Origin: Alphaproteobacteria bacterium
Lineage (GTDB): Bacteria; Pseudomonadota; Alphaproteobacteria; Puniceispirillales; Puniceispirillaceae
Direction: 5' to 3'
DNA: 58,136 nt
NCBI GenBank assembly: GCA_009920665.1
Contig: RFZL01000010.1
Location: 1 to 58,136 of the forward strand
Position numbers and translations under genes: made by a program. Position 1 is the stretch's first letter, and each line of letters starts with the position of its first letter. Positions 12,964-32,332 of the stretch are shown here, piece by piece. The notes beneath the pieces were generated by a model. The model made no database searches. It worked only from the letters and a program-made list of their open reading frames with translations, and had not been told where the DNA came from.

Positions 12964-12964
12964 A

Positions 12965-13421: not shown

Positions 13422-13443
13422 GAAGACCATGCCGGCACGACCG

Positions 13444-13661: not shown

Positions 13662-14005
13662 CGTTCTGTTCTCTCATCTAGACTGGAATTTCCGGAACCA
13701 GCAAGTTGCGGCCGCCCGGGGGCGCGCTGCAAAACCAGAGCCGGATTTCTAGGCGAAAGCCCGGCCACTGTCAACCAAAAGGCACCGCGTGGCCACGCAC
13801 CCCGCGTCGGCGCATCCACCCCGCCACGCGCCCACCGCGGGATCCACCGGGATCCACCGGTATATACCGGGACCTCACGGCTGCTATTTTCACATTTTCG
13901 TGAGAACGCATGAATTAATTTAGAAATTAACTTTTTATTTACCTTGTCTTTCTAGCCTGACGACGTGGCCGCACGCCGCACGCACCCGTTGCCAGGAGAT
14001 TGACC
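13662..14005. other. Intergenic region with short repeats and an AT-rich control segment
   Basis: No gene is supported in this 344-base divergent region between rpmF and the SEL1 gene. It holds a short tandem repeat (GGGATCCACC twice, then GGTATATACC) near 13850-13870. A dyad TTCACATTTTCGTGA lies at 13889-13903, and an exact inverted repeat TTAATTT-AG-AAATTAA at 13915-13930. The AT-rich stretch 13905-13950 stands out against the GC-rich surroundings and probably contains the promoter of the SEL1 gene. A ribosome site AGGAG lies at 13994-13998. Confidence 0.5.
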
Positions 14006-14779
14006 ATGACTGCTTTCCACGACCCGATCAACGCCCCCGCCGCCATGACCGCATCGGCGTCCCCATTTCCGGCCTCGCCGTTTGGGACCAGCCATTTTTG
14101 GACCAACCCGCTTCTTGAGCTCCGTGGATGGATCACAATTCTTCTTTTCCTGGCGGCGATACTGGCCAACAGCGCCGAACCGGCCAAAGCCGATATCGAG
14201 GTTGCCCACGCCATCAACCACCATGCCGAGGCGCCGGTCGAGGCGGGGATCGACGCCGCAAAGACCGGACGCATTCGTGACGCCATCACCATTCTGACGC
14301 CCCATGCCAATAACGGTCATGCCATGGCGAATTATATACTCGGGCTGATCTATGTTCGTGACCATGGGGCGTTGACCTCACGCCCGGCATTATCGCACCG
14401 GCATTTTTCCCGTGCCGCTTCCGCCGGTCATGTATCCTCCATCTTCGAAGCCGCCTTCCAGTTCGAGCGCGGCATCGGCACCGCGAAGGACATGGGCCGC
14501 GCCATGCATCTCTACCGGATTGCCGCACGCGCCAATCATCTGAACGCGCAGTTCAACCTCGCTGTCCTGCTGTCGCACCGAAAGGCGGAATACAAGACCC
14601 TGCAGCAAGCCTATTTCTGGGCCGTCGCCGCGCGTAACAATGCTGTCAGGACAGGCGCCGGTGACAGGCAGGAATCGCGGATCGCCGCGCTCCTCGACTC
14701 GATCCGGCCGCGGATCCCGCATCAGGCTGCCGCGCAGGCCTCCTCCGCCGCGGCAAGGCTCACCGGCCAGCCTGTCTGA
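14006..14779 (+). CDS. SEL1-repeat (TPR-like) exported protein
   Basis: A 257-residue protein. A long polar N-terminus of about 40 residues precedes one hydrophobic segment (GWITILLFLAAILANSAEPA, about 43-62), so it is exported or membrane-anchored with an unusually long N-region. SEL1-type repeats follow at about 75-190, e.g. GHAMANYILGLIYVRDHG, GHVSSIFEAAFQFERGIGT and NHLNAQFNLAVLLSH. SEL1 proteins usually mediate protein contacts in the envelope. I chose ATG 14006 because AGGAG lies seven bases before it; an in-frame TTG at 14000 is less likely. The C-terminus is Ala-rich. The partner is unknown. Confidence 0.75.
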   Translation: MTAFHDPINAPAAMTASASPFPASPFGTSHFWTNPLLELRGWITILLFLAAILANSAEPAKADIEVAHAINHHAEAPVEAGIDAAKTGRIRDAITILTPHANNGHAMANYILGLIYVRDHGALTSRPALSHRHFSRAASAGHVSSIFEAAFQFERGIGTAKDMGRAMHLYRIAARANHLNAQFNLAVLLSHRKAEYKTLQQAYFWAVAARNNAVRTGAGDRQESRIAALLDSIRPRIPHQAAAQASSAAARLTGQPV

Positions 14780-14880
14780 CCTGAACCCAGTCTGGCCCGG
14801 CACCGGGCCGGAACACGGTCCGGTCCGGCGCGAACACGCAGCTTGCCAGCAACATCGATCACCGTCCAGAATATTGGCCC

Positions 14881-14906
14881 GGGCATAATGCCCGGGCATA
14901 ATGCCC
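14881..14906. repeat. Tandem pair of 13-base palindromes
   Basis: GGGCATAATGCCC occurs twice back to back (14881-14893 and 14894-14906), each an exact 6-1-6 inverted repeat. They sit 50-75 bases before the DUF3445 gene start. A run of T does not follow, so this is not an obvious terminator; an operator for the downstream gene is possible. Confidence 0.6.
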
Positions 14907-14955
14907 AGCAGCAAACCCGGGCCAACGCCTTGCCAGCGCATGACGGAATGATTGG

Positions 14956-15831
14956 ATGGATATGGACAGCTCCGGTGAACAGCCCCCCTGGCAGCGGCTT
15001 GGCCACCGGTTCACCCTGGGGTTGCGAGCCCGCAGCGAGGTCGAATGGCTGCCCTCCGCTGATGCGTTCGGGGATCCGGCCAGGCGATCACGCCAGCTTG
15101 CCGAGAAGGCAAAACTGTTCGACCAGCGCCATGGTGAGGTGTTCGCCGCCACGCCAGAGGGGCTGACCGCAAGCCGGGAAGTTCTGGCGATGGTCATGGC
15201 ACATCTGCAACAACATCACAGGGCGGCGGCGCCGACACCCGACCCGAACCTGCATCCACTGGAAGCGGCGGCGCGGCTTGTGCCGGAGGATTTGCTGCTG
15301 CTGGCGCCGCGGGCGCGTTCAGATGAGGCTGACATTCACGACTGGTGCCTTGTCGCCGCGGCGCTTGCCTTTCCGGCGCATTGGGTGCTGGCCGAGAAGA
15401 TGGGGCGTCCCCTCGCCGGCATCCATGAACCGGTACCGCATTACGCCGCACAACTCGAGACGCCGATGGACCGGTTCTTCACCCGCATGCAGGTCGGGCC
15501 GATCAGCCATCGCTGGAACTGGTCGGTGGTGACAACCGACCGGCTCTTCACCCCACACCGGACGCGGCGCGCGCCACTGAAACCGGGCGCCGGGATCGAT
15601 GACATTTATCTGCGCATGGAAAGTCAGACACTGCGCAAGCTGCCGGAAAGCGGCCAGGTCCTGTTCACCATTCGCACCTATGTCGAACCGCTCGGGCGCT
15701 GGGCGGATGTGCCCGGCGCGATGGAGTCACTGGTCGAGATGCTGGACCGTATGACACCGCAGATGCGTGACTATAAGGGTGTTGAATTGTTTGAAGAGGC
15801 GTTGAAAGCGCATGTCGCAGCCATCCGGTGA
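14956..15831 (+). CDS. DUF3445 family protein, probable haem-dependent oxidative N-demethylase
   Basis: A 291-residue protein resembling DUF3445. Supporting segments are FFTRMQVGPISHRWNWSV, RMESQTLRKLPESGQVLFTI and the following RTYVEPL. Characterised DUF3445 members include the haem-binding catalytic subunit of an oxidative N-demethylase acting on dimethylamine, built on a PAS-like fold. Redox-partner subunits encoded beside such enzymes elsewhere are not seen here, so this could be a solitary homologue with a different role. The gene lies after the SEL1 gene, with paired palindromes upstream. It fits the methylated-amine theme of the 34-53 kb region, but is far from it. Function is inferred. 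Confidence 0.7.
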   Translation: MDMDSSGEQPPWQRLGHRFTLGLRARSEVEWLPSADAFGDPARRSRQLAEKAKLFDQRHGEVFAATPEGLTASREVLAMVMAHLQQHHRAAAPTPDPNLHPLEAAARLVPEDLLLLAPRARSDEADIHDWCLVAAALAFPAHWVLAEKMGRPLAGIHEPVPHYAAQLETPMDRFFTRMQVGPISHRWNWSVVTTDRLFTPHRTRRAPLKPGAGIDDIYLRMESQTLRKLPESGQVLFTIRTYVEPLGRWADVPGAMESLVEMLDRMTPQMRDYKGVELFEEALKAHVAAIR

Positions 15832-15840
15832 CCGCCCGGT

Positions 15841-16857
15841 TCATTGGCCTTGGTTCATTGGCCGGCAGGACCGACCGTCAGGTGACTGCCGGAACCCCGG
15901 ATTGCAGAACCATCCATGACCGCGAAGCGTCGCGTTGACTGGCGGGGCGATCCGCCGGCAACCACCCTTGCCATCTGACTGGAAGCCGCCATTGCAACGC
16001 CAGCTATTGCCGCGAATGGTGGCATTGGCCGGCACCGCAAGCCTGGCACACCGGTCATCCTTGCGCAGATAGCCGGGGTTGCAGACCCATTCATTGCCAT
16101 TGATCCGCGCATTGGCCGGCGCTTTTATGCGAAGACATTTTTCGCCTTCCTGAAAGAAGCCGGGACTACACCTCCAGACGCTACCAATAACATACGCATT
16201 CGCCGGTGCCCTGACCCGCTCGCACGCTGTCCCGGTATTCCGGAAGCCGGTGTAACAGAACCACCGGTTGCCACGGATATAACCATTTACCGGCACCTTG
16301 ATGAACGCGCAACGATCGCCGTCACGGGCATATCCGGGCAGGCATCGCCAGTCATTGCCGGCGACGATTGCGTTCCGCGGCGGCACCACGACCACGCATT
16401 TATCGCCGTCGACAAGCCGGTAGCCGGCCGTGCATCTGATGCTGTTGCCCTGAACGAAGCCATAGGCAGGCGCGACCAGAGGTTCGCATTTGCCGGACCG
16501 CTGCACAAATCCGGCCATGCATCGCCAGATATTGCCAGTCACAATGGCATTGGACGGCGCGCGGACAGCCTCGCACCGGCTGGACGCACCAAGCGCATAG
16601 CCATCGGGGCAACGCCAGCCATTATTCGTGATGATGGCATTGTCCGGACGTGGCCCGCTATGCTCGACGACCGTCGAACCCGAAGTGGATTGTGCCATCG
16701 CGCCGGATGGCAGGACAGCATTCGAGGCCAGCCAGCAGGCGATTACCAGTATCAGCGCCCCGGCGAACGGGGGCATGGCCTGCCACGGCGACGATGGCGG
16801 GCCGCGCCGCTGAGGAGTATCACAATTTTCGCGGACGGTTCCGGTTACAGCAAACAT
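15841..16857 (-). CDS. Exported protein with nine tandem two-cysteine repeats
   Basis: A 338-residue protein. After a hydrophobic export segment near residues 33-55 (GALILVIACWLASNAVLPSG) the whole mature part consists of nine repeats of about 29-31 residues. The consensus is roughly P-x-N-A-x-I-x-G-N-x-W-R-C-x-x-G-[YF]-x(5-9)-C. Each repeat carries two cysteines, giving a disulfide-rich, rod-like secreted or cell-surface protein. I do not recognise a named family; the spacing is unlike a classical EGF module. The start may be ATG 16857, or ATG 16776 nearer the signal sequence. Its stop lies 9 bases from the convergent DUF3445 gene. Function unknown. Confidence 0.75.
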   Translation of the reverse strand: MFAVTGTVRENCDTPQRRGPPSSPWQAMPPFAGALILVIACWLASNAVLPSGAMAQSTSGSTVVEHSGPRPDNAIITNNGWRCPDGYALGASSRCEAVRAPSNAIVTGNIWRCMAGFVQRSGKCEPLVAPAYGFVQGNSIRCTAGYRLVDGDKCVVVVPPRNAIVAGNDWRCLPGYARDGDRCAFIKVPVNGYIRGNRWFCYTGFRNTGTACERVRAPANAYVIGSVWRCSPGFFQEGEKCLRIKAPANARINGNEWVCNPGYLRKDDRCARLAVPANATIRGNSWRCNGGFQSDGKGGCRRIAPPVNATLRGHGWFCNPGFRQSPDGRSCRPMNQGQ

Positions 16858-16953
16858 CACGGGGCGCTCATAATCAGACAGTCAAATGACGGCCACGTGA
16901 CAGACGCCGCCATGTCCCGGACAGGGTCGCATCAGCAATATTTGGGGTCAAGA

Positions 16954-18870
16954 TCAGCTGCTGCGACGCCGCCGGAGGGGGCGCATGCCGCCTTCCTGGC
17001 GCTGTTGGCCACCACGCCTCGGGCCAGGCGATCCGCCGCGGGGGCCGCGAGGCTTTGTATTCCCACCCTTCGGTTTTCCCGGTTTGCCGCCACCCGGCAG
17101 GGTGAGGACGCCACTGTCCCGATCCTTGCCGCGCCGCTCCTTGTTGGCCGGAGACTTGCCACGCTGGTCCCTGTTGGTCCCAGCCTCGGCACGCTTGTCC
17201 TTGTTGCCCGCACCCTCGGCACGGCTGTTGGCGCCATCCCCCGCCGCATGATGCGGCTTGCCTGACGACTTGCCAAAGGATTTGGGTTTCGGCTTGCCAG
17301 CGAGCGATTTTCCGGCAGGCGGTTTGCTGGCCGGCCATTTGCTCTTCGGCTTGCCGGCCGGCTTGCCAGTGGGCTTGTTGGCGGGCTTGCCAGTGGGTTT
17401 TCCGGCAGGCTTGCCTGCTTGCTTCAGATCATGTTTGCCGCCACCACCATCCGCCTGACCACGAAATGGCTTGTCAGATGACCTGTCGTCGGATTTGCCG
17501 CTGAACTTGCCCCGTGGGCCAGCCTTGAATTTGCCGGATGGCTTGCCTTGCGAGCCACCGGGGCGCCTGGCGCCATCACGGCCATGGCGCGGCGGACGAC
17601 CACGTCCCCGGCCCTTTTTCGGCGCCCGCTCCGGCCTGAATTCGGTCACGACATTGCCGTCGGAATCGAATATCTCCAGCCGCTGGCCAACATGTGCGAG
17701 AACCGCCGACAGCTTTTCCTGATCGGCGACGCTGCAGATCGACAGCGCCGTTCCGGCCTGCCCGGCCCGGCCCGTCCGGCCAATCCTGTGGACATAGGAT
17801 TCGACCATTTCCGGCAGGTCGAAATTGACCACCATGCCAAGTCCGGACACATCGATGCCGCGCGCCGCCACATCGGTGGCGACAAGCACCCGCAGGCCGC
17901 CCGTCTTGAATCGGCGCAGCACCTTCTGCCTGATATATTGCCGCATATCACCATGCAGCGCATCGGCATCAATGCCCTTTTCGGTCAGCCATCGCGCCAG
18001 TTCATCGGCGCGCAGCCGCGTTCTGACGAAGACAAGCGCCTGTTCATCCCCCATCTGACCGAGCTCATTGAACAGAACATCACGCTTGTCGCTGTTCTGC
18101 ACGAGGATGGCGCGCTGGCTGATGGCATCCACCGTTTCGCCGGCCCGCGCGGCGCGGATGGTCACCGGATCACTGAGAAAGGTCTCGGCAAGGGACTTCA
18201 TCTCGTCCGGCATCGTGGCCGAAAAGAAAACCGTCTGGGCTGCTTCCGGCAGTGCCTCGAAAATGCGCCTGATCGGCGGCAGAAAGCCGAGATCGATCAT
18301 CTGGTCGCCCTCGTCGAGCACGAAATGCTCGATCTGGCCGAGATCAATCTTGCCCTTTGCCTGCAAATCCTCGAACCGGCCCGGCGTGGCGACAATGATA
18401 TCGACACCCTTTTTCAGCGCGCGGATCTGGAAATCATAGCGCTCGCCGCCACAGATGGTCAGATAACGCACCTTCAGACTGGTCGAGAACGCCTTGATAC
18501 TGTCCGAGACCTGATAGGCAAGCTCGCGGGTCGGGACGAGCACCAGAATAGCTGTATGGCGCGGCAATTTCGCCTTGCGCCTCTCGAGAAGAACATGCAG
18601 CAGTGGCAGAAGATAGGCCGCCGTCTTGCCGGTGCCGGTCTGCGCCAGGCCGATCAGGTCGCGCCCTTCGAGAATCGCCGGAATGGCGTCACGCTGGATC
18701 GGGGTCGGGTCGATCAGCCCCTGCGCCGCGATATCGTCGACAATCGTCGGTGCAAGGCCAAGCTCGAAAAAGGGATCGGTTTTGAACGGGGTGTCCGCTG
18801 CGACGTCGCCCTCGTCTGCTGCCTCATTGGTATCCGGCGGTGAGGCCGATGACGTCTCGTTGATGCTCAT
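16954..18870 (-). CDS. DEAD-box-type ATP-dependent RNA helicase with a Lys/Gly/Pro-rich tail
   Basis: A 638-residue RhlE-like RNA helicase. The two RecA domains span about residues 30-400 with motif I AQTGTGKT (76-83), PTRELA (113-118), SAT (217-219) and HRIGRTGRAG (361-370). Motif II reads DEGD (186-189) instead of DEAD, which is unusual but keeps the catalytic acids. From about residue 415 the chain is a disordered basic tail with many GKP/GKPxGKP units, likely to bind RNA. I chose ATG 18870 because AAGGAG lies a few bases upstream. It probably acts in ribosome assembly or RNA decay. Confidence 0.9.
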   Translation of the reverse strand: MSINETSSASPPDTNEAADEGDVAADTPFKTDPFFELGLAPTIVDDIAAQGLIDPTPIQRDAIPAILEGRDLIGLAQTGTGKTAAYLLPLLHVLLERRKAKLPRHTAILVLVPTRELAYQVSDSIKAFSTSLKVRYLTICGGERYDFQIRALKKGVDIIVATPGRFEDLQAKGKIDLGQIEHFVLDEGDQMIDLGFLPPIRRIFEALPEAAQTVFFSATMPDEMKSLAETFLSDPVTIRAARAGETVDAISQRAILVQNSDKRDVLFNELGQMGDEQALVFVRTRLRADELARWLTEKGIDADALHGDMRQYIRQKVLRRFKTGGLRVLVATDVAARGIDVSGLGMVVNFDLPEMVESYVHRIGRTGRAGQAGTALSICSVADQEKLSAVLAHVGQRLEIFDSDGNVVTEFRPERAPKKGRGRGRPPRHGRDGARRPGGSQGKPSGKFKAGPRGKFSGKSDDRSSDKPFRGQADGGGGKHDLKQAGKPAGKPTGKPANKPTGKPAGKPKSKWPASKPPAGKSLAGKPKPKSFGKSSGKPHHAAGDGANSRAEGAGNKDKRAEAGTNRDQRGKSPANKERRGKDRDSGVLTLPGGGKPGKPKGGNTKPRGPRGGSPGPRRGGQQRQEGGMRPLRRRRSS

Positions 18871-19140
18871 GATACTCCTTCCCCGGCCCGGCACTTTCAG
18901 CACAGGCGGCGCGGCATCCATCAACCACAGGACATGAGGTGATCATAGCGATGCTGACAGAAAATGGTGGAGCCTGGCAGCCACTGCTTTCAAACTCCTG
19001 TTTGTTAGGCGACGCGCGTCACGGCCTTCTGGTAGCGACGCCTCGACTTTCGACGGCAAACTAGATGTATATCCCTGTCGACGCAAGATGTTCATTCGCA
19101 CCACCTTTTCCGGATCGTTGGCCCGAAAGCCCGGCACCTG

Positions 19141-19403
19141 ATGTCATCCGGCACCTGGTCGGCACATTCCATCGCCGGCAACGCGAAACGGCGCAGCGGC
19201 ATGATCCCCTCTTTCAAATGAATTGGGCCGATCTATGTCGGCCAGCTGGTCTGGAACCGTCACCGCCACATCAAGCATCCCGATACCGGCAAGGCGCAAC
19301 TGCGCCGGAACGCCGAGAGCAACTGGACGATCACCGAGGTGCCGGCGCTGCGGATCATCGACGACGCCACCTTTGCGGCGGCGCGGAAACGACGGCCGGG
19401 GCA
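19141..19403 (+). pseudogene. Remnant of a large serine site-specific recombinase
   Basis: One frame reads GTWSAHSIAGNAKRRSGMI, then a TGA at 19219-19221, then PIYVGQLVWNRHRHIKHPDT and NWTITEVPALRIIDDATF. These match the Recombinase domain (PF07508-like) of large serine integrases, where the segments W..STI.GN.KRGTGIL, YVGRLVWNR and L.I.DD..W follow each other. The catalytic resolvase domain and the zinc-ribbon C-terminus are missing, and the frame has an internal stop. It runs directly into the 3' end of tRNA-Ser. No intact element remains beside it. The 270 bases between the helicase start and this remnant hold nothing I can name. Confidence 0.75.
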
Positions 19404-19495
19404 TGGCGGAGGGACGGGGATTCGAACCCCGGAAAGGGGTTTCCCCCTTTAACGATTTAGCAAACCGCCGCCTTCAGCCACTCGGCCACCCCTCC
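19404..19495 (-). tRNA. tRNA-Ser(GCT)
   Basis: The 92-base gene reads leftward from GGAGGGG at 19495. The acceptor stem pairs GGAGGGG with TCCCTCC, then G and an encoded CCA at 19406-19404. The D-arm starts TGGCCGAGTGG, the anticodon loop contains TTTGCTAAA with anticodon GCT (bases 19461-19459), a long variable arm is present as expected for serine, and the T-arm contains GGTTCGAATCC. It would read AGC and AGU codons. It lies between gatB and a recombinase remnant. Confidence 0.95.
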
Positions 19496-19624
19496 GCCGG
19501 GGCCGGACCCGGTCAGGCACCAGATGGCGCCAACCGGACCGAAGAAGATACACGGCGTATGCAGGATGTTTCCTAGCTTTGAAACAGCCTTCTGTCAAAC
19601 CGGAAATCGACCGTCTGGCGGTGT

Positions 19625-21079
19625 TCAGCCATCAAGCTTCGCACGCAGCAGCTGGTTGACCATGCCGGGGTTGGCCTGGCCCTTCGACGCCTTCATCACC
19701 TGGCCGACGAAAAAGCCGAACAGCTTGTCCTTGCCACCGCGATATTCGGCAACCTTGTCCTGGTTGGTGGCCAGTACCTCGTCAATCATCACCTCGATGG
19801 CGCCGCTGTCCGAAACCTGTTTCAGACCCTGTTCCTCGACAATGGCCGCGGCGTCCTTGCCGCTCTCGAACATGGCCGCGAAGACATCCTTGGCGATCTT
19901 CCCGGAAATGGTGCCGTCCTCGATCAGCCCGACAAGCCCGCCAAGCGCCGCCGGTGTCACCTTGCAGTCGGCCAGCGTCTGGCCCGACTTGTTCAGCGCA
20001 CCGAACAGCTCCACCGTCATCCAGTTGGCGACAAGCTTGCGGTCGCGGCCGGCACTGGCGGCCTCGTAATAGGCGGCTGTCTCGCGCTCCTCGGTGATCA
20101 CCGCGGCGTCATAGGCCGACAGCCCGTATTCGCCGGTCAGCCGGTCGCGGATCTGGTCAGGAAGCTCGGGCAGCGCGGCGCTGAGTTCATCGACCTCCGC
20201 CTGCGGGATTACCAGCGGCAACAGGTCAGGATCGGGGAAATAGCGATAGTCATGCGCATCCTCTTTCGAGCGCATCGCCCGCGTCGTGCCGGTGGAGGTG
20301 TCGAACAGGCGCGTTTCCTGGTCGATCTCGCCGCCATCCTCGATGATCTCGATCTGCCGGGCCACTTCATAATCAATGGCCTGCTGGATGAAACGCAGCG
20401 AGTTCAGATTCTTGGTCTCGGTACGGGTGCCGAATTCCGCGCCCGGGCGGCGCACCGACACATTGACGTCTGCGCGCAGCGAGCCCTCTTCCATATTGCC
20501 GTCACAGGTGCCGAGATAGCGCAGGATAGACCGCAATTTGCGGACATAGGCGGCGGCCTCGGCGGCGGAGCGCATGTCGGGCCGCGAGACGATCTCCATC
20601 AGCGCCACGCCGGTCCGGTTCAAATCGATATAGCTTTTCGAGGGATGCTGGTCATGCATCGACTTGCCGGCATCCTGTTCCAGATGCAGGCGTTCGATTC
20701 CAATCTCGCGGGTCGTGCCGTCCGGCATGTCGAGGCGCAACACCCCCTCGCCAACAATCGGCTGCTTGTACTGGCTGATCTGATAGCCCTGCGGCAGGTC
20801 GGCATAGAAATAGTTCTTGCGGTCGAACACACTGACAAGATTGATCTCGGCCTTCAGACCAAGCCCGGTGCGGATTGCCTGACGGACACATTCCTGGTTG
20901 ATCACCGGCAGCATGCCGGGCATCGCCGCGTCGACAAGCGAGACATTGGCGTTCGGATCGGCACCGAACGCCGTTGGCGCGCCGGAAAACAGCTTGGCGT
21001 TCGAGGCCACCTGTGCATGCACCTCAAGCCCGATCACAACTTCCCATTCGCCGGTACGGCCCTCGACAAGATTGCTCAT
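19625..21079 (-). CDS. gatB: Asp/Glu-tRNA amidotransferase subunit B
   Basis: A 484-residue intact GatB. The start [20 protein letters not shown] and the segments [16 protein letters not shown]-like ([16 protein letters not shown]) and [13 protein letters not shown] mark the kinase/tRNA-binding cradle. The helical YqeY-like domain follows at the C-terminus. With GatA and GatC it converts misacylated Glu-tRNA(Gln) or Asp-tRNA(Asn) to the correct forms. Its start overlaps the gatA stop by four bases (ATGA), so it is translationally coupled in the gatCAB operon. Confidence 0.97.
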
Positions 21080-22560
21080 GACGCCCCTCCCGCGCGGCGC
21101 TGCGGTACCGCGCTGAACGCGGCCGCATCCTCGATCACACGTCCGATGCTGTACAGGCTCGCCTCGTCGAACGGGCGGCCAAGGATCTGCAGTCCCAGCG
21201 GCAGGCCGTCACTGTTCAGACCGGCCGGCAGGGCCATGCCCGGCAGCCCGGCAAGATTGGCCGGCACGGTGAACACATCATTCAGATAGTTGGTCACCGG
21301 ATCATCAACCTTGCGCCCGACCGGGAAGGCCGCCGTCGGCGTTGCCGGGGTCAGGATCGCATCGACGGTCTCGAACGCGCTGTCGAAATCCTGCTTGATC
21401 AGGCGCCGGACCTTCTGCGCCTTCAGGTAATAGGCGTCATAATAGCCGGCCGACAGCACATAGGTGCCGATCAGGATACGGCGCTGCACCTCCTCGCCAA
21501 AACCGGCGGCGCGGGTCCCGGCATACATTTCGTCAAGTGAATCCGCCTCGACACGCAACCCGTAGCGCACACCATCATAGCGGGCCAGGTTTGACGAGGC
21601 TTCGGCCGGCGCGATGATGTAATAGGCTGGAAGCGCGTATTTCGTGTGCGGCAGCGATATCTCGACAAGCTCGGCGCCGGCGTCACGAAGCCAGGCCTGC
21701 CCCTGCTCCCACAGCGCGACGACCTCGCCATCCATGCCATCCATGACATATTCCGCCGGCACGCCGATCTTCATCCCCTTGACGCCCTTGTCAAGCGCCG
21801 CCATCAGGTCGGGAAGCGGCGCGTCGGCCGAGGTCGAATCCTTTGGATCATGGCCTGCCATCGCCTGCATCATCAGCGCGTTGTCGGCAACGGTGCGGCT
21901 GAACGGGCCAGCCTGATCCAGCGAGCTGGCAAAGGCGACAATGCCCCAGCGCGAACAGCGCCCATAGGTCGGCTTCATCCCGACAATGCCGCAGAATGCC
22001 GCCGGCTGGCGGATCGACCCGCCAGTGTCGGTACCGGTCGCCAGCAGCGCCGCGCGCGCGGCCACGGCCGCGGCCGAACCACCGGAGGACCCCCCCGGCA
22101 CCAGATCGACACCGTCGCCCCCCTGCCACGGGTTGATCGCCGGCCCGAAGGCGCTTGTCTCATTACCCGATCCCATGGCGAATTCATCGCAGTTCAGCTT
22201 GCCGAGCATGACCCCGCCCTCGCGCCACAGATTGGCGGTGACGGTGCTTTCATAGGTTGGCGTGAAGCCCTCGAGGATGCGCGAACAGGCGGTGCTGACA
22301 ACCCCGGCGGTGCAGAACAGATCCTTCACCCCGACAGGGATGCCCTCGATCAGACCGGCCTCACCGGACTTGATCCTGGCCTGCGAGGCCGCCGCCATCT
22401 CCAGCGCGCGGTCGGCGGTGACAGCCACATAATTGTTCAGCGGCGCCGTCTCCTCGACAGCGCCAAGATAGGCCGTGGTCAGTTCGGGCGCGGAAATCTC
22501 GCCGGACTCCAGCGCAGCGCGCGCCGCAACGGCGCTCAGTGACAAAAGATCGGACATCAC
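21076..22560 (-). CDS. gatA: Asp/Glu-tRNA amidotransferase subunit A
   Basis: A 494-residue amidase-signature protein that releases ammonia from glutamine. The Ser-cisSer-Lys site is visible: the lysine in [13 protein letters not shown], the glycine/serine-rich [19 protein letters not shown], and the nucleophile in [16 protein letters not shown]. The length is normal. It overlaps gatC and gatB by four bases each, giving a tight gatC-gatA-gatB operon. Confidence 0.97.
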
Positions 22561-22844
22561 TCAACCACCTTTGGAACGACAAAGAACCCGCTGGCCGTCT
22601 CCGGCACATTGGCCAAAACCTCGTCCACCCTGTTGCCGTCGCTGACAACATCCTCGCGACGTGGCAGCGAATGGCCGGTCACGCTGGCGATCGGCTCGAC
22701 ATTTTCGGTGTCGACCTCGTTCAACTCCTCGATCCAGTCGAGGATGCCGCTAAGTTCGGCCGACAACTTTTCCTGCCGGTCCTCCGGGACATGGATGCGT
22801 GCCAGCCGTGCGATACGCGCAACGGTACTCTTGTCAACCGACAT
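22557..22844 (-). CDS. gatC: Asp/Glu-tRNA amidotransferase subunit C
   Basis: A 95-residue GatC, starting [19 protein letters not shown] and containing [20 protein letters not shown], the usual GatC landmarks. It wraps around GatA and stabilises the complex. I chose ATG 22844; the frame extends 14 codons upstream but without family similarity. It is first in the gatCAB operon and divergent from ruvX, with 54 bases between the starts, which must contain both promoters. Confidence 0.95.
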
Positions 22845-22898
22845 GATGCTGTGCTTTGTGCTGTTGCAGTAGAAACCACGAAGCATCTATCACCGCAT

Positions 22899-23378
22899 AT
22901 GGCGATCTGCAAGCTCAACGATATGAAAGCCGCGCTTTCGGACGGCCAGCGACTGCTCGGTCTGGATGTCGGCAAAAAGACGATCGGGCTGGCCATTTCA
23001 GATTCCCGCCTCAGCGTGGCAAGCCCGCTGAAAATCATCTGGCGCAAGAAATTCACCCCCGATGCCGAATCGATCTTCGCGCTGTGCGATGAGGAGGGCG
23101 TCGGCGGCCTTGTCATCGGTTGGCCGTTGAATATGGATGGTAGCGAGGGGCCGCGCTGCGATGCGACGCGTGATTTCGCGCACGCCCTGCTGCGTCTTCG
23201 TGACCTGCCAATCACCTTTCAGGATGAAAGGCTGTCAACACAGGCGGTGGAATCGGCGATGCTGGAATCCGATATGACGCGGGCGCGCCGAGCTGTCAGG
23301 CGCGATGCGCTGGCCGCGGGCTGGATCCTGCAGGCGGCACTCGACCGGATTCACGGGTCTTTGACCGACCCGGCCTGA
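22899..23378 (+). CDS. ruvX: Putative Holliday-junction resolvase / pre-16S rRNA nuclease (YqgF)
   Basis: A 159-residue RNase H-fold protein. The first catalytic acid lies in [17 protein letters not shown], and further hallmarks are [17 protein letters not shown] and the motif [12 protein letters not shown]. In E. coli the homologue YqgF processes the 16S rRNA 5' end; a resolvase role was first proposed from the fold. I chose ATG 22899; ATG 22923 (MKAAL) is an alternative closer to the fold. It is divergent from gatC and precedes pyrB by 46 bases. Confidence 0.92.
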
Positions 23379-23424
23379 TTTCCGCTGGACGTCGGCAGGC
23401 AAGCGTGACTATAAGCTGGCCTTC

Positions 23425-24435
23425 ATGACCGATACGCGCGCACCCGGGCACGCCGCTTCCGGCGCCATGCCAGCCACAACGGCCCCGCCGGCCCAATTGT
23501 CATCCCGTCATTTTCTTGGAATCGAGGGGCTTAACCCTCTTGAGATCAACGGCCTTCTTGACCGCGGCAATGTCTTTGCCGACATCATCCAGAATAACGG
23601 TCTGTTCGAACCGCCATTGTCCGACATGCTCCGCGGGCTTACCGTCCTCAACCTGTTTTTCGAGAATTCGACGCGGACCCGTGTGTCCTTTGAACTGGCG
23701 GCGAAGAACCTTGGCGCTTCGGTTCTGAACATCAATGTGGCCGGGTCATCGGTGAAAAAGGGCGAGACACTTCTGGATACGGCAACGACGCTGAACGCCA
23801 TGCACCCGCACATTCTCGTCGTGCGGCATAATTGCTCCGGTGCCGTGCAACTTCTCAGCCAGCATGTCGATGCCGCCGTGATCAATGGCGGCGACGGGCG
23901 TCATGAACATCCCACCCAGGCACTGCTCGACGCGCTGACAATCAAACGCCGGGTTGGCCGGATCGAAGGTCTGAAGATCGCCATCTGCGGTGATATCGCC
24001 AACAGCCGTGTGGCCAGATCGAACATCCACCTTCTGTCGACCCTTGGCGCCGAGATCAGGCTGGTCTGTCCGGCGACGCTGCTGCCGGTGGCCGTCGACA
24101 GCATGGGGGTCGAGATCTTCACCGATCTCGAGGAGGGAATCGAGGGTGTCGATATCGTGATGATGCTGCGGCTTCAGACGGAACGTATGGAAGGCACCGA
24201 GACACCGTCACAGCGCGAATATTTCAATCTGTTCGGGCTCGACCGGAACAAGCTGATGCGGGCCGCGCCGCAGGCGTTGATCATGCATCCCGGGCCGATG
24301 AATCGGGGGGTGGAGATCGACTCCGCCACCGCCGATGATGTCGAGAAGAGCCTGATCCGCACGCAGGTGGAAATCGGTGTGGCCGCGCGGATGGCCTGTC
24401 TCGAGGCGCTTGCCGGCGGCGGGGGCGCGCCATGA
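23425..24435 (+). CDS. pyrB: Aspartate carbamoyltransferase catalytic subunit
   Basis: A 336-residue ATCase, which joins carbamoyl phosphate and aspartate in pyrimidine synthesis. The carbamoyl-phosphate loop is [18 protein letters not shown], and the segments [18 protein letters not shown] and [13 protein letters not shown] are present. The first 30 residues are Ala/Pro-rich and extra to the fold. The stop overlaps the next gene by four bases (ATGA). In bacteria with this arrangement PyrB assembles with an inactive PyrC-like partner, which matches what follows here. Confidence 0.96.
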
Positions 24436-25724
24436 CCGACCTGCTGCTTCATAACGCACGCCTCCTCGATCCCGCGCAGGCGCGTGACGAGACCGGATTT
24501 GTCCGCATCACCGACGGGACCATCACCGGGGTTGACGCCGGCGCACCGCCATCCGAGCTTCTGACAGCGGCAGCGCAGACATATGATTGCGGCGGCGCCT
24601 GCCTCGCACCGGGCCTGATTGACATGCGGGTTCAGTCGGCCGACCCGGGCGCCGAGCATCTGGAAGACCTGGCGACCCTGTTGCGCGCCGCCGCGTCAGG
24701 CGGCATTACCAGCATCGTCACCCTGCCCGATGCCAACCCGGTCATCGATGATGCCAGCATGATCGATTCGCTGACCCTGCGCGCAAACCGCATCGGTGGC
24801 GCGCGGCTGTTCCTTTACGGTGCCGCAACGCGCCGGCTGAAGGGCAAGGCCATGGCCGAACTTGGCCTGATGGCGGATGCCGGCGCCGTCGGCTTCTCCA
24901 ATGGCACCCGTACGATCATGGACAGCCTGGTGATGCGGCGGGTGCTCGCCTATTGCGGCATGCTTGACCGGCCGTTCATCCAGCATTGCGAGGACCACCA
25001 TCTGACCGCCGGCGGTGAGATGAATGAGGGCGAGACATCGACCCGCCTCGGCCTGATCGGCGCGCCGGCCGAGGCCGAGGCCATCATCATCGACCGCGAC
25101 CTGCATCTCGTCAGGCTCAGCGGCGCACGCTATCACGCAGCACATATCTCGACCCGCGCCGCCGCCCAGTCGATCCGCCGCGCCAAGGATGAAGGCTTGC
25201 CGGTGACGGCCGACACCGCGCCGCCCTATTTCATGCTCAACGAATTGTCGGCAAGCACCTATGACACGGCCTTCAAGCTTGCCCCGCCCTTGCGCTCTGA
25301 AGATGACCGCCAGGCGATTATCGAAGCGCTTGCCGACGGCACCATCGATGCCATCGCCTCGGACCATATCCCGGTCGATGGTGACGCCAAGGCACAGCCA
25401 TTCGGCCCGGCACAACCGGGTGCGTCAGGCCTCGACACGCTTCTGGCGATGACGTTGTCTCTGGTCCACCGGGACCATCTGTCGCTGCTTCGCGCGATGG
25501 AACTTCTCAGCCTCGCCCCGGGCTCGATCCTCGATCTTGCCGGCGGCACGCTTGGCGAGGGCGCTGTCGCCGATCTGGTGCTGTTCGACCCACAGGCAAG
25601 CTGGGTGGTTCGCGCCGCCGATTTCGCCTCCAGCTCGCGGGTTACCCCGTTTGAGGGGCTGCCCGTTCAGGGCCGCGTGACGGCAAGCTGGGTAGGTGGC
25701 GTGCCGGTCTTCCAGCGGGACTGA
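24432..25724 (+). CDS. pyrC: Dihydroorotase homologue lacking the HxH metal site (PyrB partner)
   Basis: A 430-residue amidohydrolase-fold protein. Active dihydroorotases carry a metal-binding HxH after GLxDM. Here the sequence reads [13 protein letters not shown], so Arg66 and Gln68 stand in for both histidines. The segments [10 protein letters not shown] and [12 protein letters not shown] are kept. This matches the non-catalytic PyrC' (PyrX) proteins that are translated with and stabilise aspartate carbamoyltransferase. A separate active dihydroorotase would then be encoded outside the window. It is coupled to pyrB by an ATGA overlap. The symbol pyrC follows common usage for this position, not activity. 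Confidence 0.9.
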
Positions 25725-25730
25725 CCGGTC

Positions 25731-26327
25731 ATGGCTGGCATTTACCTCCTTGTTGTCGCCGTGATGGCCTATCTGGCCGGGTCGGTGCCGTTCGGGCTGA
25801 TCTTCACGCGGCTTGCCGGCAAGGGTGACATCCGCAAGGTTGGCAGTGGCAATATTGGCGCAACAAACGTCCTGCGGACCGGCAGCAAGGGGCTGGCGCT
25901 GCTGACGCTGATCTTCGACGGTGGCAAGGGCGCGGTGATCGCACTCGGTGTCGCGCATGCGACGGCGGACCCGCTGATGACCGGCATTGCCGGCCTGATG
26001 GCGGTGGTAGGCCATTGTTTCCCGGTATGGCTGAAATTCCGGGGCGGCAAGGGCGTGGCCACCTGCGTCGCCACTTTCGCCGCCTTTGATATCCGGCTTG
26101 GCCTTGTCTTCGCCGCGCTCTGGCTCGGCACCGCGGCGCTGACCCGCTATTCATCGCTGGCGGCGCTTGTCGCAACGCTGGGATGCGGCATCGCCGCGGT
26201 GGCGCTGAAGCTGCCACCACCCATCTGCGCCGCCGTGATCGCCATGAGCGCGCTCAGCTGGGCGCGCCATCACGCCAATATCGGCCGGCTGCTGGCCGGC
26301 ACCGAAAGCCGCATCAGCCAGAAATAA
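25731..26327 (+). CDS. plsY: Acyl-phosphate:glycerol-3-phosphate acyltransferase
   Basis: A 198-residue inner-membrane enzyme with about five hydrophobic segments. Conserved motifs are AGSVPFGLIFTRLAGKGDIR, VGSGNIGATNVLR and LKFRGGKGVATCVATF. It transfers an acyl group from acyl phosphate to glycerol-3-phosphate, the first step of phospholipid synthesis. It starts six bases after the pyrC stop, so it is part of the same transcript, which continues to dprA. Confidence 0.95.
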   Translation: MAGIYLLVVAVMAYLAGSVPFGLIFTRLAGKGDIRKVGSGNIGATNVLRTGSKGLALLTLIFDGGKGAVIALGVAHATADPLMTGIAGLMAVVGHCFPVWLKFRGGKGVATCVATFAAFDIRLGLVFAALWLGTAALTRYSSLAALVATLGCGIAAVALKLPPPICAAVIAMSALSWARHHANIGRLLAGTESRISQK

Positions 26328-26388
26328 ACCTTTACGATAACCCAAAGGCGTTAATTATTCCTTCAGCTTTATCGCGTATACCGGCGAT

Positions 26389-27486
26389 ATGGACCGCGAG
26401 GAACAAATCGCCCATTTGCGGCTGATCCGTACGCCGAATATCGGCCCGATGACCTTCAGCCTGCTGTTGCAGCGCTATGGTAGTGCTGCCGACGCGCTGC
26501 GTGCCGTACCGGAACTGGCAAAGCGAGGTGGCCGGACGCTGAAACCGGCTCCGCGTTCGCTGGCCGAGGCCGAGCTTGCCGCCAATGAAGCTGTCGGCGC
26601 GCGGCTGCTGTTCAAGGGCGGGGACGGCTATCCGCACCGGCTGGCGCAGTTCGATGATGCCCCGGCGGTGTTGTCGACACGGGGCGCACTCCATCTTCTT
26701 GACCGGCCGGGGGTCGGCATCGTCGGCGCCCGCAACGCCTCCATCAACGCACAGCGGTTCGCACAGAGCCTTGCCGATGAGCTTGCATCCGAGGGGCATG
26801 TAGTCATTTCGGGGCTGGCGCGCGGCATCGATGCGGCGGCGCATAACGGTGCGCTGGCGGGCGGCACGATTGCCGTTATCGCCGGCGGCATCGATATCCA
26901 TTACCCGCCGGAGAATACCGATCTACAGGATGCAATTGCCGAGACCGGCCTGGTCGTTGCCGAGATGCCGCCCGGCACGCAGCCGACCCCGCGCCATTTC
27001 CCGATCCGCAACCGCGTCATCGGCAGCCTCGCGCTTGGTACCGTCGTGGTCGAGGCGGCGGAGCGGTCCGGGTCGCTGATCACCGCACGCGAGACGGCCG
27101 AGCGCGGCGGCGAGGTGATGGCCGTGCCGGGATCACCGCTCGATCCGCGTTCGGCGGGCTGCAATCATCTGATCCGTGAAGGCGCGACGCTGGTGCGCGG
27201 CGTTGCCGATATTCTGGAATGCCTGTCTCGTCCAGCCGCCGCCGACGCACCGGACCCGCAGGATTGGCGCGATGCGCGCCTTGCCCCCGGCCCGCCAGAG
27301 TCGATTGACCGTTGCCGCACCACCATTCTCGATGCGCTAGGGTCCGAGGGCACTGACATCGACGAGGTTATCAGATGGTGTGACGCCCCGACGGCGACGG
27401 TCCTTGCGGCGATCCTCGAACTGGAACTTGCCGGACGGATCACCCGACATCACGGCAACCGGGTCTGTCTGGTGCTTGGCACCTGA
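26389..27486 (+). CDS. dprA: DNA processing protein DprA
   Basis: A 365-residue DprA/Smf protein that loads RecA on single-stranded DNA during transformation. The N-terminal helical segment (LIRTPNIGPMTFSLLLQRYG) is followed by the Rossmann-like core VGIVGARNASINAQRFAQSL and VISGLARGIDAAAHNGAL, then AERSGSLITARETAERGGE. A C-terminal winged-helix domain (about 305-360) is present. It normally stands before topA in alphaproteobacteria, as here. A 61-base AT-rich gap separates it from plsY. Confidence 0.95.
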   Translation: MDREEQIAHLRLIRTPNIGPMTFSLLLQRYGSAADALRAVPELAKRGGRTLKPAPRSLAEAELAANEAVGARLLFKGGDGYPHRLAQFDDAPAVLSTRGALHLLDRPGVGIVGARNASINAQRFAQSLADELASEGHVVISGLARGIDAAAHNGALAGGTIAVIAGGIDIHYPPENTDLQDAIAETGLVVAEMPPGTQPTPRHFPIRNRVIGSLALGTVVVEAAERSGSLITARETAERGGEVMAVPGSPLDPRSAGCNHLIREGATLVRGVADILECLSRPAAADAPDPQDWRDARLAPGPPESIDRCRTTILDALGSEGTDIDEVIRWCDAPTATVLAAILELELAGRITRHHGNRVCLVLGT

Positions 27487-27513
27487 AACCACAGCCTGTT
27501 GTCCGGTCGGGCT

Positions 27514-27542
27514 TTGACAAATCGTGATTTAGGTACTATCTG
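27514..27542 (+). promoter_or_regulatory. Sigma-70-like promoter before the topA start
   Basis: A perfect -35 box TTGACA at 27514-27519 and a weak -10 TATCTG at 27537-27542 are separated by 17 bases, 26 bases before the ATG. This suggests the topA-type frame is transcribed from its own promoter. Confidence 0.5.
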
Positions 27543-27567
27543 CGGGTTTCAGACAACAGGGCCGCTC

Positions 27568-29148
27568 ATGAAACTCGTCATCGTCGAATCCCCCGCAAAA
27601 GCCAAAACCATCAATCGCTATCTTGGCGATGATTACCAGGTTCTGGCCTCCTACGGGCATGTCTGCGACCTGCCAAGCAAGGACGGGTCAGTGCTTCCCG
27701 ATGAGGACTTCGCCATGAAATGGCAGGTCTCCAGCGGCTCCGAGCGGCATATTGGCGACATCACCAAGGCATTGCGCGCGGCGGACAGGCTGATTCTGGC
27801 GACCGACCCCGACCGTGAGGGCGAGGCCATCAGCTGGCATGTCCTCGAACTGCTTCAGGATCGCAATCTGATCAAGGAGAAGCCGGTAGAACGCGTTGTC
27901 TTCAACGAGGTGACAAAGAGTGCCATTCTGGCCGCAATGGCGCAGCCGCGCGCGCTTGATACCGAGCTGATCGATGCCTATCGTGCCAGACGGGCGCTCG
28001 ACTACCTTGTCGGATTCTCGATCTCGCCAGTGCTGTGGCGCAAGCTGCCGGGCGCGCGGTCGGCGGGCCGCGTGCAGTCGGTGGCGCTGCGTCTGATCTG
28101 CGAGCGCGAGGCCGCCATCGAGGCCTTCATCGCGCAGGAATACTGGACCGTCGAGGCCGAGCTTGGAAAGGCTGACGGGCGGAATTTCAAGGCCCGCCTC
28201 ACCCATCTGAATGGCAAGAAGCTTGGCAAGCTGGATATCGGCACCGAGACCGAGGCCATCGCCGCCGCCATCCAGCCGAACACGAAGATCATCTTCGGCG
28301 AGGTGATCGGCAATCCCGGCCTTGATGTGATGGATGTCGCCGCCGTCGCCGCCGTGGCACGCGAGGCGCATGTGCCGCTGATGCTGGACTGCACCTTCAA
28401 CACGCCCTGGCTTCTGAGGCCGATCGAGCTTGGCGCCAACATCATCATCCATTCGCTGACGAAATGGATGGGCGGGCATGGCGTCGCCATCGGCGGCGCG
28501 GTTGTCGATGGCGGCAATTTCGACTGGGGGCGTGATGACCGCTTCCCGACAATCGCCGGCCCGCATTACGCGATGAACGACATCAACTTCCATGAGGAGT
28601 TCGGCCCCGCCGCCTTCACCGCCAAATTCCGCGCCGAGGGCATGTATAATTTCGGCCCGTCCATGTCGCCAACCAACGCCTTCCATATCCTGCAGGGTCT
28701 GGAGACCCTGCCGCTGCGCATGCAGCGGCACATGGACAACACGGCGGCTATGCTGGACTTCCTGACCGGCCATGACGCGGTGGCCTGGGTCAAACATCCG
28801 ACGCTCCCCGATCATCCGAGCCATGAGCTGGTCAAGCGGATGCTGCCGCGCGGCGCCGGGTCGATCATCGTCTTTGGGCTGAAAGGCGGGCGCGATGCCG
28901 GCAAGGCCTTTATCGAGGCGGTTGAACTGTCATCGCATCTGGCGAATGTCGGCGACGCCAAGACCCTTGTCATCCATCCGGCCAGCACCACCCATTCGCA
29001 CATCTCCGCCGAGGCGATGGTCGAGGGTGGGCTGTCGGATGACATGATCAGGCTGTCGGTCGGACTTGAGGACATTGCCGATATCACCGCCGATTTCGAG
29101 CTTGGATTCCGGGCGGCGGCGCGCATCGCCGCCAAGGCCGCAGAATAG
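27568..29148 (+). CDS. Chimeric frame: topoisomerase I N-terminus joined to O-acetylhomoserine sulfhydrylase C-terminus
   Basis: A continuous 526-codon frame with two unrelated halves. Residues 1-230 are the TOPRIM and adjoining region of DNA topoisomerase I: VIVESPAKAKTINRYLG with Glu7, ATDPDREGEAISWHVLE at 79-95, and GARSAGRVQSVALRLICERE. From about 235 it is an O-acetylhomoserine (thiol)-lyase/cystathionine gamma-synthase-family protein: QPNTKIIFGEVIGNPGLDVM, PLMLDCTFNTPWLLRPIELG and the PLP lysine, Lys299, in IIHSLTKWMGGHG. TopA's catalytic tyrosine domain and the first part of the PLP enzyme (about 130 residues) are missing. The join lies near 28250-28276 in GCC-rich DNA. It could be a real deletion fusion or a chimeric assembly; neither half should work in its usual role. 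Confidence 0.85.
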   Translation: MKLVIVESPAKAKTINRYLGDDYQVLASYGHVCDLPSKDGSVLPDEDFAMKWQVSSGSERHIGDITKALRAADRLILATDPDREGEAISWHVLELLQDRNLIKEKPVERVVFNEVTKSAILAAMAQPRALDTELIDAYRARRALDYLVGFSISPVLWRKLPGARSAGRVQSVALRLICEREAAIEAFIAQEYWTVEAELGKADGRNFKARLTHLNGKKLGKLDIGTETEAIAAAIQPNTKIIFGEVIGNPGLDVMDVAAVAAVAREAHVPLMLDCTFNTPWLLRPIELGANIIIHSLTKWMGGHGVAIGGAVVDGGNFDWGRDDRFPTIAGPHYAMNDINFHEEFGPAAFTAKFRAEGMYNFGPSMSPTNAFHILQGLETLPLRMQRHMDNTAAMLDFLTGHDAVAWVKHPTLPDHPSHELVKRMLPRGAGSIIVFGLKGGRDAGKAFIEAVELSSHLANVGDAKTLVIHPASTTHSHISAEAMVEGGLSDDMIRLSVGLEDIADITADFELGFRAAARIAAKAAE

Positions 29149-29167
29149 CCGCCGACAGGAGAGAATC

Positions 29168-29962
29168 ATGAAGCATGAATTGCATGGCGAGATGATCCAT
29201 ATCGCCACCGGCGGCGTGGATTTCGACAACAGCAAGCCTGTCCTGCTGTTTCTTCATGGCAGCGGGCAGAGCCATCTGACCTGGGTGCTGCAGAGCCGCT
29301 ATTTCGCGCATCGCGGCCATGCCGTCCTGGCGCCCGACCTGCCGGGACATGGCCTGTCGGGCGGTGCGCCGCTCACCAGCATCGGCGAGATGGCCGACTG
29401 GAGCGCGGCGCTGCTGGAAAGCCTTGGCGTTGCCAGCGCCACCTATGTCGCGCATTCGCAAGGTGTCCTGATCGCGCTTGAGGCCGCCGCACGGCATGCC
29501 GACCGGGTGTCGGGGCTGGCGCTGATTGCCGGGGCGATGGCGATCCCGGTCAATGACATGCTGGTCGAAATGGCGCAGTCAAAGCCGGAAAAGGCCTTTG
29601 CGATGATGACAAGCTGGGGCCATGGCCCGGGTGCGCATATGTTCGACAACACGCAGCCCGGCCATTCCTTCCTTGGCTATGGACGGCGGGTGATGGCACA
29701 GAATGACGCCGTCGCCCTGCATGCCGACCTGGTGGCGTGCAACAGCTATGATGGCGGACCTGCCGCGGCAGCGGCGGTAACGCAGCCGAGCCTGTGCCTC
29801 ATTGCCGGTCGCGATCGCATGACACCGGCGAAGTTCGGACACAAGATGGCGGCGTCGATTGATGGTGCCGAGACCCGCACGTTCGAGCGCGCCGGGCATT
29901 TCCTGCCGGCGGAATTCCCGCTTGAGGTGAATGAGGCGCTGGCCACCTTCCTCACTCGCTGA
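29168..29962 (+). CDS. Alpha/beta hydrolase with an AHSQG nucleophile elbow
   Basis: A 264-residue serine hydrolase. The oxyanion region is LLFLHGSGQSHLTWV, the loop PDLPGHGLSGG is typical, and the elbow is VAHSQGV with Ser97. The usual first glycine of GxSxG is alanine here. The terminal histidine lies in RAGHFLPAEFP. I chose ATG 29168 (AGGAGAG upstream). It begins 19 bases after the topA/metY frame and precedes the FadN-type gene by 33 bases. The substrate is unknown. Confidence 0.82.
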   Translation: MKHELHGEMIHIATGGVDFDNSKPVLLFLHGSGQSHLTWVLQSRYFAHRGHAVLAPDLPGHGLSGGAPLTSIGEMADWSAALLESLGVASATYVAHSQGVLIALEAAARHADRVSGLALIAGAMAIPVNDMLVEMAQSKPEKAFAMMTSWGHGPGAHMFDNTQPGHSFLGYGRRVMAQNDAVALHADLVACNSYDGGPAAAAAVTQPSLCLIAGRDRMTPAKFGHKMAASIDGAETRTFERAGHFLPAEFPLEVNEALATFLTR

Positions 29963-29995
29963 ACCAGGGCCGATTAGCGGCCGGAGGTAACCGTT

Positions 29996-32332
29996 ATGTC
30001 CTTGATGGATTCCACTTTCAAAAAGATTGCCGTGATCGGCGCCGGCACAATGGGAAGCGGCATTGCGGCACAGATCGCCAATGCCGGCAATGAGGTGATG
30101 CTTCTCGACCTTCCGGCGAAGACAGCTGGCGAGCCGTCACCTGCCGAACGCGCGATCGAACGTCTCCTTGCCTCCGACCCGCCGCAACTGATGCACAAGC
30201 GGAACGCATCCCGCATCATCACCGGCACGATCACCGAGGATTTCGACCGGTTGGCCGACTGCGACTGGATCATCGAGGCGGTGGTCGAGCGTCTCGACAT
30301 CAAGAAAGACCTTTATAAGCGGCTCGACGCCACAATCGGCCCGGATTGCATTGTCAGCTCCAACACCTCGACAATCCCGATCCGGCTTCTGGTCGAGGAT
30401 ATGCAGACCGCCTTCCGCCGGCGTTTCGCGATCACGCATTATTTCAACCCGGTGCGGTACATGCGGCTTCTCGAACTGGTGCGTGGCACCGACACCTGCG
30501 ATGACGTGATAGACCGGCTGGCCGATTTCAACGACCGCGTCCTTGGCAAGGGCGTGGTGCGATGCGCCGACACGCCGGGGTTCTTGGGAAACCGGGTCGG
30601 CGTCTTCGCACTGCAGGTGGGGATCGACGAGGCCATGCGCTGCGGCCTCGATATCGAACAGGCCGATGCGCTGATGGGACGCCCGATGGGAATCCCGAAA
30701 ACCGGTGTCTTTGGCCTGTATGATCTGATCGGGATCGATCTGATGGTCGATGTCGTGGCCTCGCTGCGAACGATCCTTCCTGACGGCGACGCCTTCCACG
30801 CGGTTGGTGGGCAAAATGACATGATCATGGCGATGATCAGGGACGGATTTACCGGCGACAAGGGACGCGGCGGTTTCTATATGACCGGCGCGGATGGTGC
30901 CGAGATGGCACGCCCGCTGACCGGCGCCGGCGAACCGCTTGCCGCCCCCCGCGCCCGCGACAAGACATTGCCAGATGCGGCACTGCGTGCCGCCGAGGCC
31001 AGCGCCACGCGCGGCGAACCGCTCCACGAGATCATTGATGGCGATGATGATTGCGCGCGTTTCTGCCGCCGCGTGCTGGCACGTGTTCTCGCCTATGCCG
31101 CCAGCCTTGTGCCGGACGTCACCGATTCGCCGCAGGATATCGACGATGCGATGAAGCTTGGATTCAACTGGCAGCGCGGTCCGTTCGAGATGATCGACGC
31201 CATCGGCCCGGAAAGGATGGCGGCGCTGTTTGCCGAGGCCGGCCTCACGGCGCCACCGGTTCTGGCAAGCGGCGGCCCGGTCTATCAGGCCGATGACAAT
31301 GTCCTGAATGTACGGCATGCCGATGGCCATTACCGGCCGGTCAGCCTGCCCGCCGGCGTCATGCGCTTTCACATGACGCGCCAGACATTGACGCCCATCA
31401 CAAGCAACAACGCGGCAAGCCTGTTCGCGCTGGATGGCGATCTGCGGCTTGTCGAGTTCCATTCCAAGGCCAACGCGCTGACCGATGAATCGATGCAGAT
31501 TGTCACCGCCGCAGCCGAGGATCACGGTGCCGGCATCATCATCCATAACGATGCTCAGCATTTTTCGGCCGGTGTCGATCTGAACGCCTTCCGCGCCTAT
31601 ATCGAGGCTGGTGACTGGGATGGTATCGATGGCTTCCTGAGCCGCTTCCAGCAGGCGGTGTGCCAGCTGAAATACACGCCGGTACCGGTGGTCGGCGCCC
31701 CGTCGGGCCTTGCCGCCGGCGGCGGGTACGAGGTGCTGGCGCATTGCGACCGGCTGGTTGTGCATACCAATTCGGTAATGGGACTTGTCGAGGCGGGCGT
31801 CGGCGTTGTCCCCGGTGGCGGCGGTATCAAGGACACCTATTTCCGCTGGTTCGACGCCAGGCAGAGCTGGGATGAGGCCGCCTGGCAGACCTGGATGAAT
31901 ATCGGCTATGGCGCCACCGGCTCATCGCCGCAGCTGTCGGCCCGCATGATGTATTTCCGCGAAGCACGCGACGACACGGTGATGAACCGCGACCGGCTGC
32001 TGCCCCGCGCCATCGAGATGGTAACAGCGATGCAGGACGGATATCAGGCACCGCGGCCGCCGGTGGCACAGCTTGCCGACAGCGCACTGGCAGCGAAGAT
32101 GGAAGCCTTCATGCAAGAGGGCATCGAGCGGGGCGATTTCATGCCGCATGACAAGACCGTGGCCATGGCGATCGCCAGCGTCATGCTGCGCGGTGACGGC
32201 GATGGCGAGACGGCGGATGAGCAGGAACTTTATGCCCGCGAACGCGCCGCCTTCATCCGGCTGGCGAAGACGCCGCAAACCCATGCCAGGATCAGCAGCA
32301 TGCTGGATCACGGGGCGGCGATCAGGAACTAG
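29996..32332 (+). CDS. FadN-type 3-hydroxyacyl-CoA dehydrogenase / enoyl-CoA hydratase
   Basis: A 778-residue bifunctional beta-oxidation protein. The domain order is dehydrogenase first, then crotonase, as in FadN and unlike FadB/FadJ. The NAD fold is KIAVIGAGTMGSGIAAQIAN at about 10-29, with the catalytic region ITHYFNPVRYMRLLELV. The crotonase part includes NDAQHFSAGVDLNAF and SGLAAGGGYEVLAHCDRL with GLVEAGVGVVPGGGG. A ribosome site GGAGG lies a few bases before ATG 29996. It converges on an acyl-CoA dehydrogenase 16 bases away, so the two may act in one fatty-acid or branched acyl-CoA route. Confidence 0.92.
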   Translation: MSLMDSTFKKIAVIGAGTMGSGIAAQIANAGNEVMLLDLPAKTAGEPSPAERAIERLLASDPPQLMHKRNASRIITGTITEDFDRLADCDWIIEAVVERLDIKKDLYKRLDATIGPDCIVSSNTSTIPIRLLVEDMQTAFRRRFAITHYFNPVRYMRLLELVRGTDTCDDVIDRLADFNDRVLGKGVVRCADTPGFLGNRVGVFALQVGIDEAMRCGLDIEQADALMGRPMGIPKTGVFGLYDLIGIDLMVDVVASLRTILPDGDAFHAVGGQNDMIMAMIRDGFTGDKGRGGFYMTGADGAEMARPLTGAGEPLAAPRARDKTLPDAALRAAEASATRGEPLHEIIDGDDDCARFCRRVLARVLAYAASLVPDVTDSPQDIDDAMKLGFNWQRGPFEMIDAIGPERMAALFAEAGLTAPPVLASGGPVYQADDNVLNVRHADGHYRPVSLPAGVMRFHMTRQTLTPITSNNAASLFALDGDLRLVEFHSKANALTDESMQIVTAAAEDHGAGIIIHNDAQHFSAGVDLNAFRAYIEAGDWDGIDGFLSRFQQAVCQLKYTPVPVVGAPSGLAAGGGYEVLAHCDRLVVHTNSVMGLVEAGVGVVPGGGGIKDTYFRWFDARQSWDEAAWQTWMNIGYGATGSSPQLSARMMYFREARDDTVMNRDRLLPRAIEMVTAMQDGYQAPRPPVAQLADSALAAKMEAFMQEGIERGDFMPHDKTVAMAIASVMLRGDGDGETADEQELYARERAAFIRLAKTPQTHARISSMLDHGAAIRN

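Follow-up and report, generated by a model that had tools for sequence, protein, structure and literature searches.

The question raised by this locus is whether the open reading frame at 27568-29148 of the window encodes a new fusion protein or whether two ordinary genes were brought together outside the cell. The window, meaning the whole stretch of 58,136 nucleotides analysed here, is contig C204 of a draft genome (G000) of 2.69 Mb in 214 contigs, estimated at 99.15% complete and 2.49% contaminated. Our answer is that the TopA-MetY fusion gene is almost certainly not a real feature.

Composition of the fused frame

The frame starts at an ATG at 27568 and terminates at 29146-29148, and its translation gives 526 residues with no internal stop. 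Residues 1-234 are those of TopA, and after them comes MetY, an O-acetylhomoserine sulfhydrylase, of which the final ~300 residues are present. A sequence-only reading of this DNA had described the N-terminal part of TopA and a PLP-dependent sulfhydrylase in one stop-free frame, with the motifs VIVESPAKAK and SLTKWMGG; translation, Pfam and NCBIfam all agree with that description, and both motifs are found in the translation together with ATDPDREGEAIS. The features are as follows.

26389-27486: dprA-like frame directly before the topA part (named from its translation, no family search)
27568-28269, + strand: 5' part of topA (DNA topoisomerase I, residues 1-234); Pfam/NCBIfam, synteny with relative G002
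28255-28269, + strand: the join, GCCATCGCCGCCGCC; native to topA and metY of G002, with the switch inside it
28255-29148, + strand: 3' part of metY (last ~297 residues, with SLTKWMGG); PF01053, collinear with G001:C5 and G002:C199

The Toprim domain (PF01751), which is the N-terminal domain of type IA DNA topoisomerase I, is present at residues 2-114 with a score of 74.5 bits against a cut-off of 23.1. Topoisom_bac (PF01131) is matched at residues 130-234 by profile positions 2-102 of 411 only, and the complete domain, with the catalytic tyrosine, is absent. Cys_Met_Meta_PP (PF01053) is matched at residues 226-514 by profile positions 125-380 of 381, ie the full-length PLP fold is absent as well, the first 124 profile positions (about the first third of MetY) being missing. 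Residues 226-234 form an Ala-rich stretch that can be aligned to both profiles. The PLP lysine is kept, in SLTKWMGG, which we take to be the PLP-lysine site. The metY part has 96% residue identity to the MetY of G002, where it lies in an open frame of 479 amino acids, and window positions 28195-28269 are 100% identical to the topA of the same genome.

Location of the missing halves

The catalytic domain of TopA had been regarded as lost in the earlier reading. A search of the G000 contigs with PF01131 gave two matches only, one on C204 (profile 2-103) and the other at C170:94-1137 (profile 81-410), and the rest of topA, with the genes that follow it, is found at C170:223-7752, which is 88.7% identical to the topA continuation in G002. 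The catalytic part thus lies near the start of contig C170, and is followed by an RNase R-like frame and others. Profile positions 1-80 of PF01053 are matched at C180:5-253(-). The frame concerned is cut off by the contig end at base 1 and has an MBL-fold-like frame upstream of it; the names RNase R and MBL-fold were read from translations, with no family search. Both displaced partners of the join, ie the rest of topA and the front of metY, are therefore present at contig starts.

The 5' part of topA occurs in one copy in G000, as does the 3' part of metY of the window type, for which the next best match is 42% identical. A second topA in G000 was considered and rejected, given the single 5' copy and PF01131 matches on C204 and C170 only. 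The sequence-only reading had proposed looking for an intact topA directly after dprA in the same strain. The gene is not intact, since it is split over two contigs with ~69 bases unrecovered between them, but both its parts are there. Between the join region and other G000 contigs, exact DNA overlap amounted to no more than short GC-rich words (lowest E 0.001), and the ~69 bases of topA and ~140 bases of metY expected beside the join gave only short words in the assembly, at E 9e-4 or weaker. As these bases were not found, neither gene is seen whole in the window's strain.

Arrangement in relatives

In the same-genus genomes G001 and G002, the left part of the window and C170 form one collinear locus, and C180 and the right part of the window form another. 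In G002, window 19403-28269 corresponds to C113:542-9416 (91.5% identity) and C170:223-7752 to C113:9486-17002, with 69 bases between them, and the collinear match of the left part stops at 28269. On the other side, C180:1-7837 corresponds to C199:7861-27 (90.2%) and window 28250-31600 to C199:7997-11347 (89.4%). The same two-locus arrangement is seen in G001, on contigs C1 and C5, where the right part could be traced with gaps to window position 52768. For G004, contig C32 carries the left part and contig C52, which itself starts inside metY, the right part, in agreement as far as C52 reaches.

The distance between the two genes was obtained from four single-contig relatives. The match starts of topA and metY are 655,025 and 1,256,149 in G016, 2,575,595 and 2,036,609 in G023, 1,469,898 and 2,072,750 in G037, and 131,615 and 786,749 in G043. 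The distance is therefore 539-655 kb in these four genomes, and the genes have the same direction in G016, G023 and G037 and opposed directions in G043.

When the fused frame was compared with 60 relatives, no match covering both halves appeared among the matches listed, the window's own apart, and a true fusion should have ranked high there. Of the 11 relatives in the same genus, four (G006, G009, G010 and G011, 61-86% complete) have no topA row among the matches listed. Among GTDB genomes, the best 80 of 133 loci carried either the topA half (22 loci) or the metY half (58 loci), and none carried both; each locus was taken with 3 kb on either side, and the set may lack records of the window's own genome. 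Three loci (L109, L112 and L127) gave two metY-type matches each, the second of which, being only 31-35% identical, is an adjacent paralogue and not topA.

A second break in synteny was observed at window 19100-19404, where a tRNA-Ser(gct) gene on the - strand (19495-19404) has its 3' end. To the right of 19403 the window follows G001:C1:298-307 kb, and to the left (3614-18974) it follows G001:C1:814-830 kb. This break may be a misjoin at the tRNA, an island or a true rearrangement. A frame that resembles a DEAD-box helicase and ends in a long low-complexity tail rich in Lys, Gly and Pro, as judged from translation, lies at 16954-18924 (- strand).

The sequence at the join

The window switches from topA to metY inside GCCATCGCCGCCGCC, at 28255-28269; to the left of this word it equals topA and to the right it follows metY. 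The earlier placing of the join near 28250-28276 was right, and the remark that GCC-rich DNA could supply microhomology there holds too. The word is the longest exact one (15 bases) common to topA and metY of G002, within 2,700 bases counted from the start of topA and 1,300 bases around the metY site. In topA of G002 it codes AIAAA within EAIAAAAAI, and in metY AIAAA within DAIAAAIQ. In 50 codon shuffles of the first 900 bases of each stretch the longest common word was 9-13 bases, and none of the 50 reached 15. The sequence common to both parents at the join is measured in the G002 genes, the window strain's own parents not being whole. Across other relatives a longer common word, of 17 bases and not the same one, appeared when topA of one genome was set against metY of another; for that search 9 of 10 topA and 13 of 15 metY loci were anchored (L159, L078 and L160 were dropped), and some genomes are represented twice.

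A random join would give an open frame in about 1 in 3 cases, and the open frame was counted against a chimera. The frame stays open because the two copies of the word are in phase with each other and both code Ala-rich sequence (topA EAIAAA, metY AIAAAIQ).

The same spot of metY is broken in one other assembly. In L078 (contig CAJWDO010000209.1, MAG ERR599052_bin.51) metY is broken at the equivalent of window 28266 and matches rightward from there, while its first ~480 bases, AT-rich at the beginning, have no match in the 15 loci compared. Locus L039, of genome G009, stops matching the window at the same base, and the two are probably the same genome. The GC-rich metY spot hence also ends in a join to other DNA in another assembly, which is one case and not a rate.

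The start of contig C170

Contig C170 (locus L010) was considered as a clean topA continuation from its first base, and this was rejected. Its first ~190-222 bases have no match to the topA DNA of relatives, and bases 1-222, compared with the collected loci at E 1e-3, found only two copies of C170 itself (L008 and L074). C170:79-300 codes TopA-like residues with 62-65% identity to TopA within the genus; the final 26 residues are native, and the ~66 bases that precede this diverged piece have no identified match. Since at the protein level it overlaps what the window already holds, the piece is probably not from the topA of the window's strain. The start of C170 is probably a chimeric contig end, and it points to mixed-source ends in the G000 assembly.

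Discussion

Of the two explanations offered by the sequence-only reading, that of a contig joining two places by error or artefact is upheld by the orphan halves and the synteny, and that of a new fusion protein is not. The first is strongly supported because the rest of topA and the front of metY are at contig starts and relatives keep the two genes apart. Further points in its favour are the lack of a locus with both halves among the best 80 of 133, the position of the join at the longest common word, the metY break in L078 and the unmatched start of C170. Counted against it, besides the open frame, are the bases missing from both genes beside the join, the measurement of the common word in G002 and the low share of distant direct joins with complementary bases in the amplification study cited below. 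We consider it about 95% probable that 27568-29148 is a chimera of two ordinary genes that arose in amplification, library preparation or assembly and not in the cell. The location of the pieces, the synteny and the word common to both genes in G002 are direct observations.

The GCC-rich word of ~15 bases, native to both genes, would have linked the 5' part of topA with the 3' part of metY. The displaced partners would be C170 (the rest of topA) and C180 (the start of metY), each starting near one of the two breaks. The technical nature of the join, and the step that would have made it, are our inference. Template switching during amplification is one origin that would fit a word of this size. 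Alternatively, an assembler may have misjoined the contigs at a short word, provided that the identical stretch is slightly longer in the genes of this strain. Assemblers usually work with words of at least 21 bases and the word in G002 has 15, so a pure k-mer misjoin would need a few more shared bases or a chimeric molecule.

True recombination in the cell, at the microhomology and in part of the population, would have removed the several hundred kb that separate the two genes, leaving a translated TopA-MetY fusion. The microhomology is exactly at the join, and a deletion would give the orientation seen in the window, since topA and metY have the same direction in three of the four single-contig relatives. 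However, C170 and C180, which such a deletion would remove, are both present in a 99.15%-complete assembly, and a deletion that had become fixed would lose the catalytic part of TopA. Nor is the reciprocal join seen: C180 matches the metY of G002 to its first base, and C170 starts with the topA-like piece and ~66 unmatched bases. Together with the lack of a match to both halves among those listed for the 60 relatives, this makes recombination in the cell very improbable. It is just as improbable that microhomology joined topA to metY in some cells of a SAR116-type population, with a Toprim-MetY hybrid translated from the topA promoter. A stable, selected TopA(N)-MetY(C) gene beside intact copies, despite its 526-codon open frame and two well conserved parts, is the least credible of all, given the single topA 5' copy, the single metY 3' copy of the window type (next best 42%), two halves that lack their partner domains, and none of the best 80 of 133 loci with both halves together.

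The chimera of two ordinary genes carries a caution only. When the parents share an in-phase run of Ala codons, a frame that stays open over a join says little for a real gene fusion. With such fusions in draft genomes, the ends of other contigs should be searched for the orphan halves before the fusion is entered in a database.

Comparison with known systems

Residues 1-234 resemble TopA (TIGR01051, PF01751 + PF01131), and the left neighbourhood is that of topA in G001, G002 and G004; the fused frame differs in ending at profile position 102 of 411, with positions 81-410 on contig C170. Residues ~226-520 resemble MetY (TIGR01326, NF006004, PF01053) with the PLP-lysine motif kept, and the right neighbourhood is that of metY in the same three genomes; here the difference is the absence of the first 124 profile positions, of which 1-80 are on contig C180.

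For chimeras of multiple displacement amplification, one study reports 2-21 shared bases at more than 70% of junctions and 85% of chimeras as inverted; of the joins that were distant and direct, just 27.6% had complementary bases (PMC1855051). The window junction is alike in lying at a short common word, and unlike in being direct and distant where theirs are mostly inverted. In a benchmark of short-read metagenome assembly, chimeric contigs numbered 2.63 per genome with SPAdes and 22.15 with megahit (PMC11261854). Those contigs, as described there, likewise join two places, although they are counted between genomes, whereas the two parts in the window appear to come from one genome.
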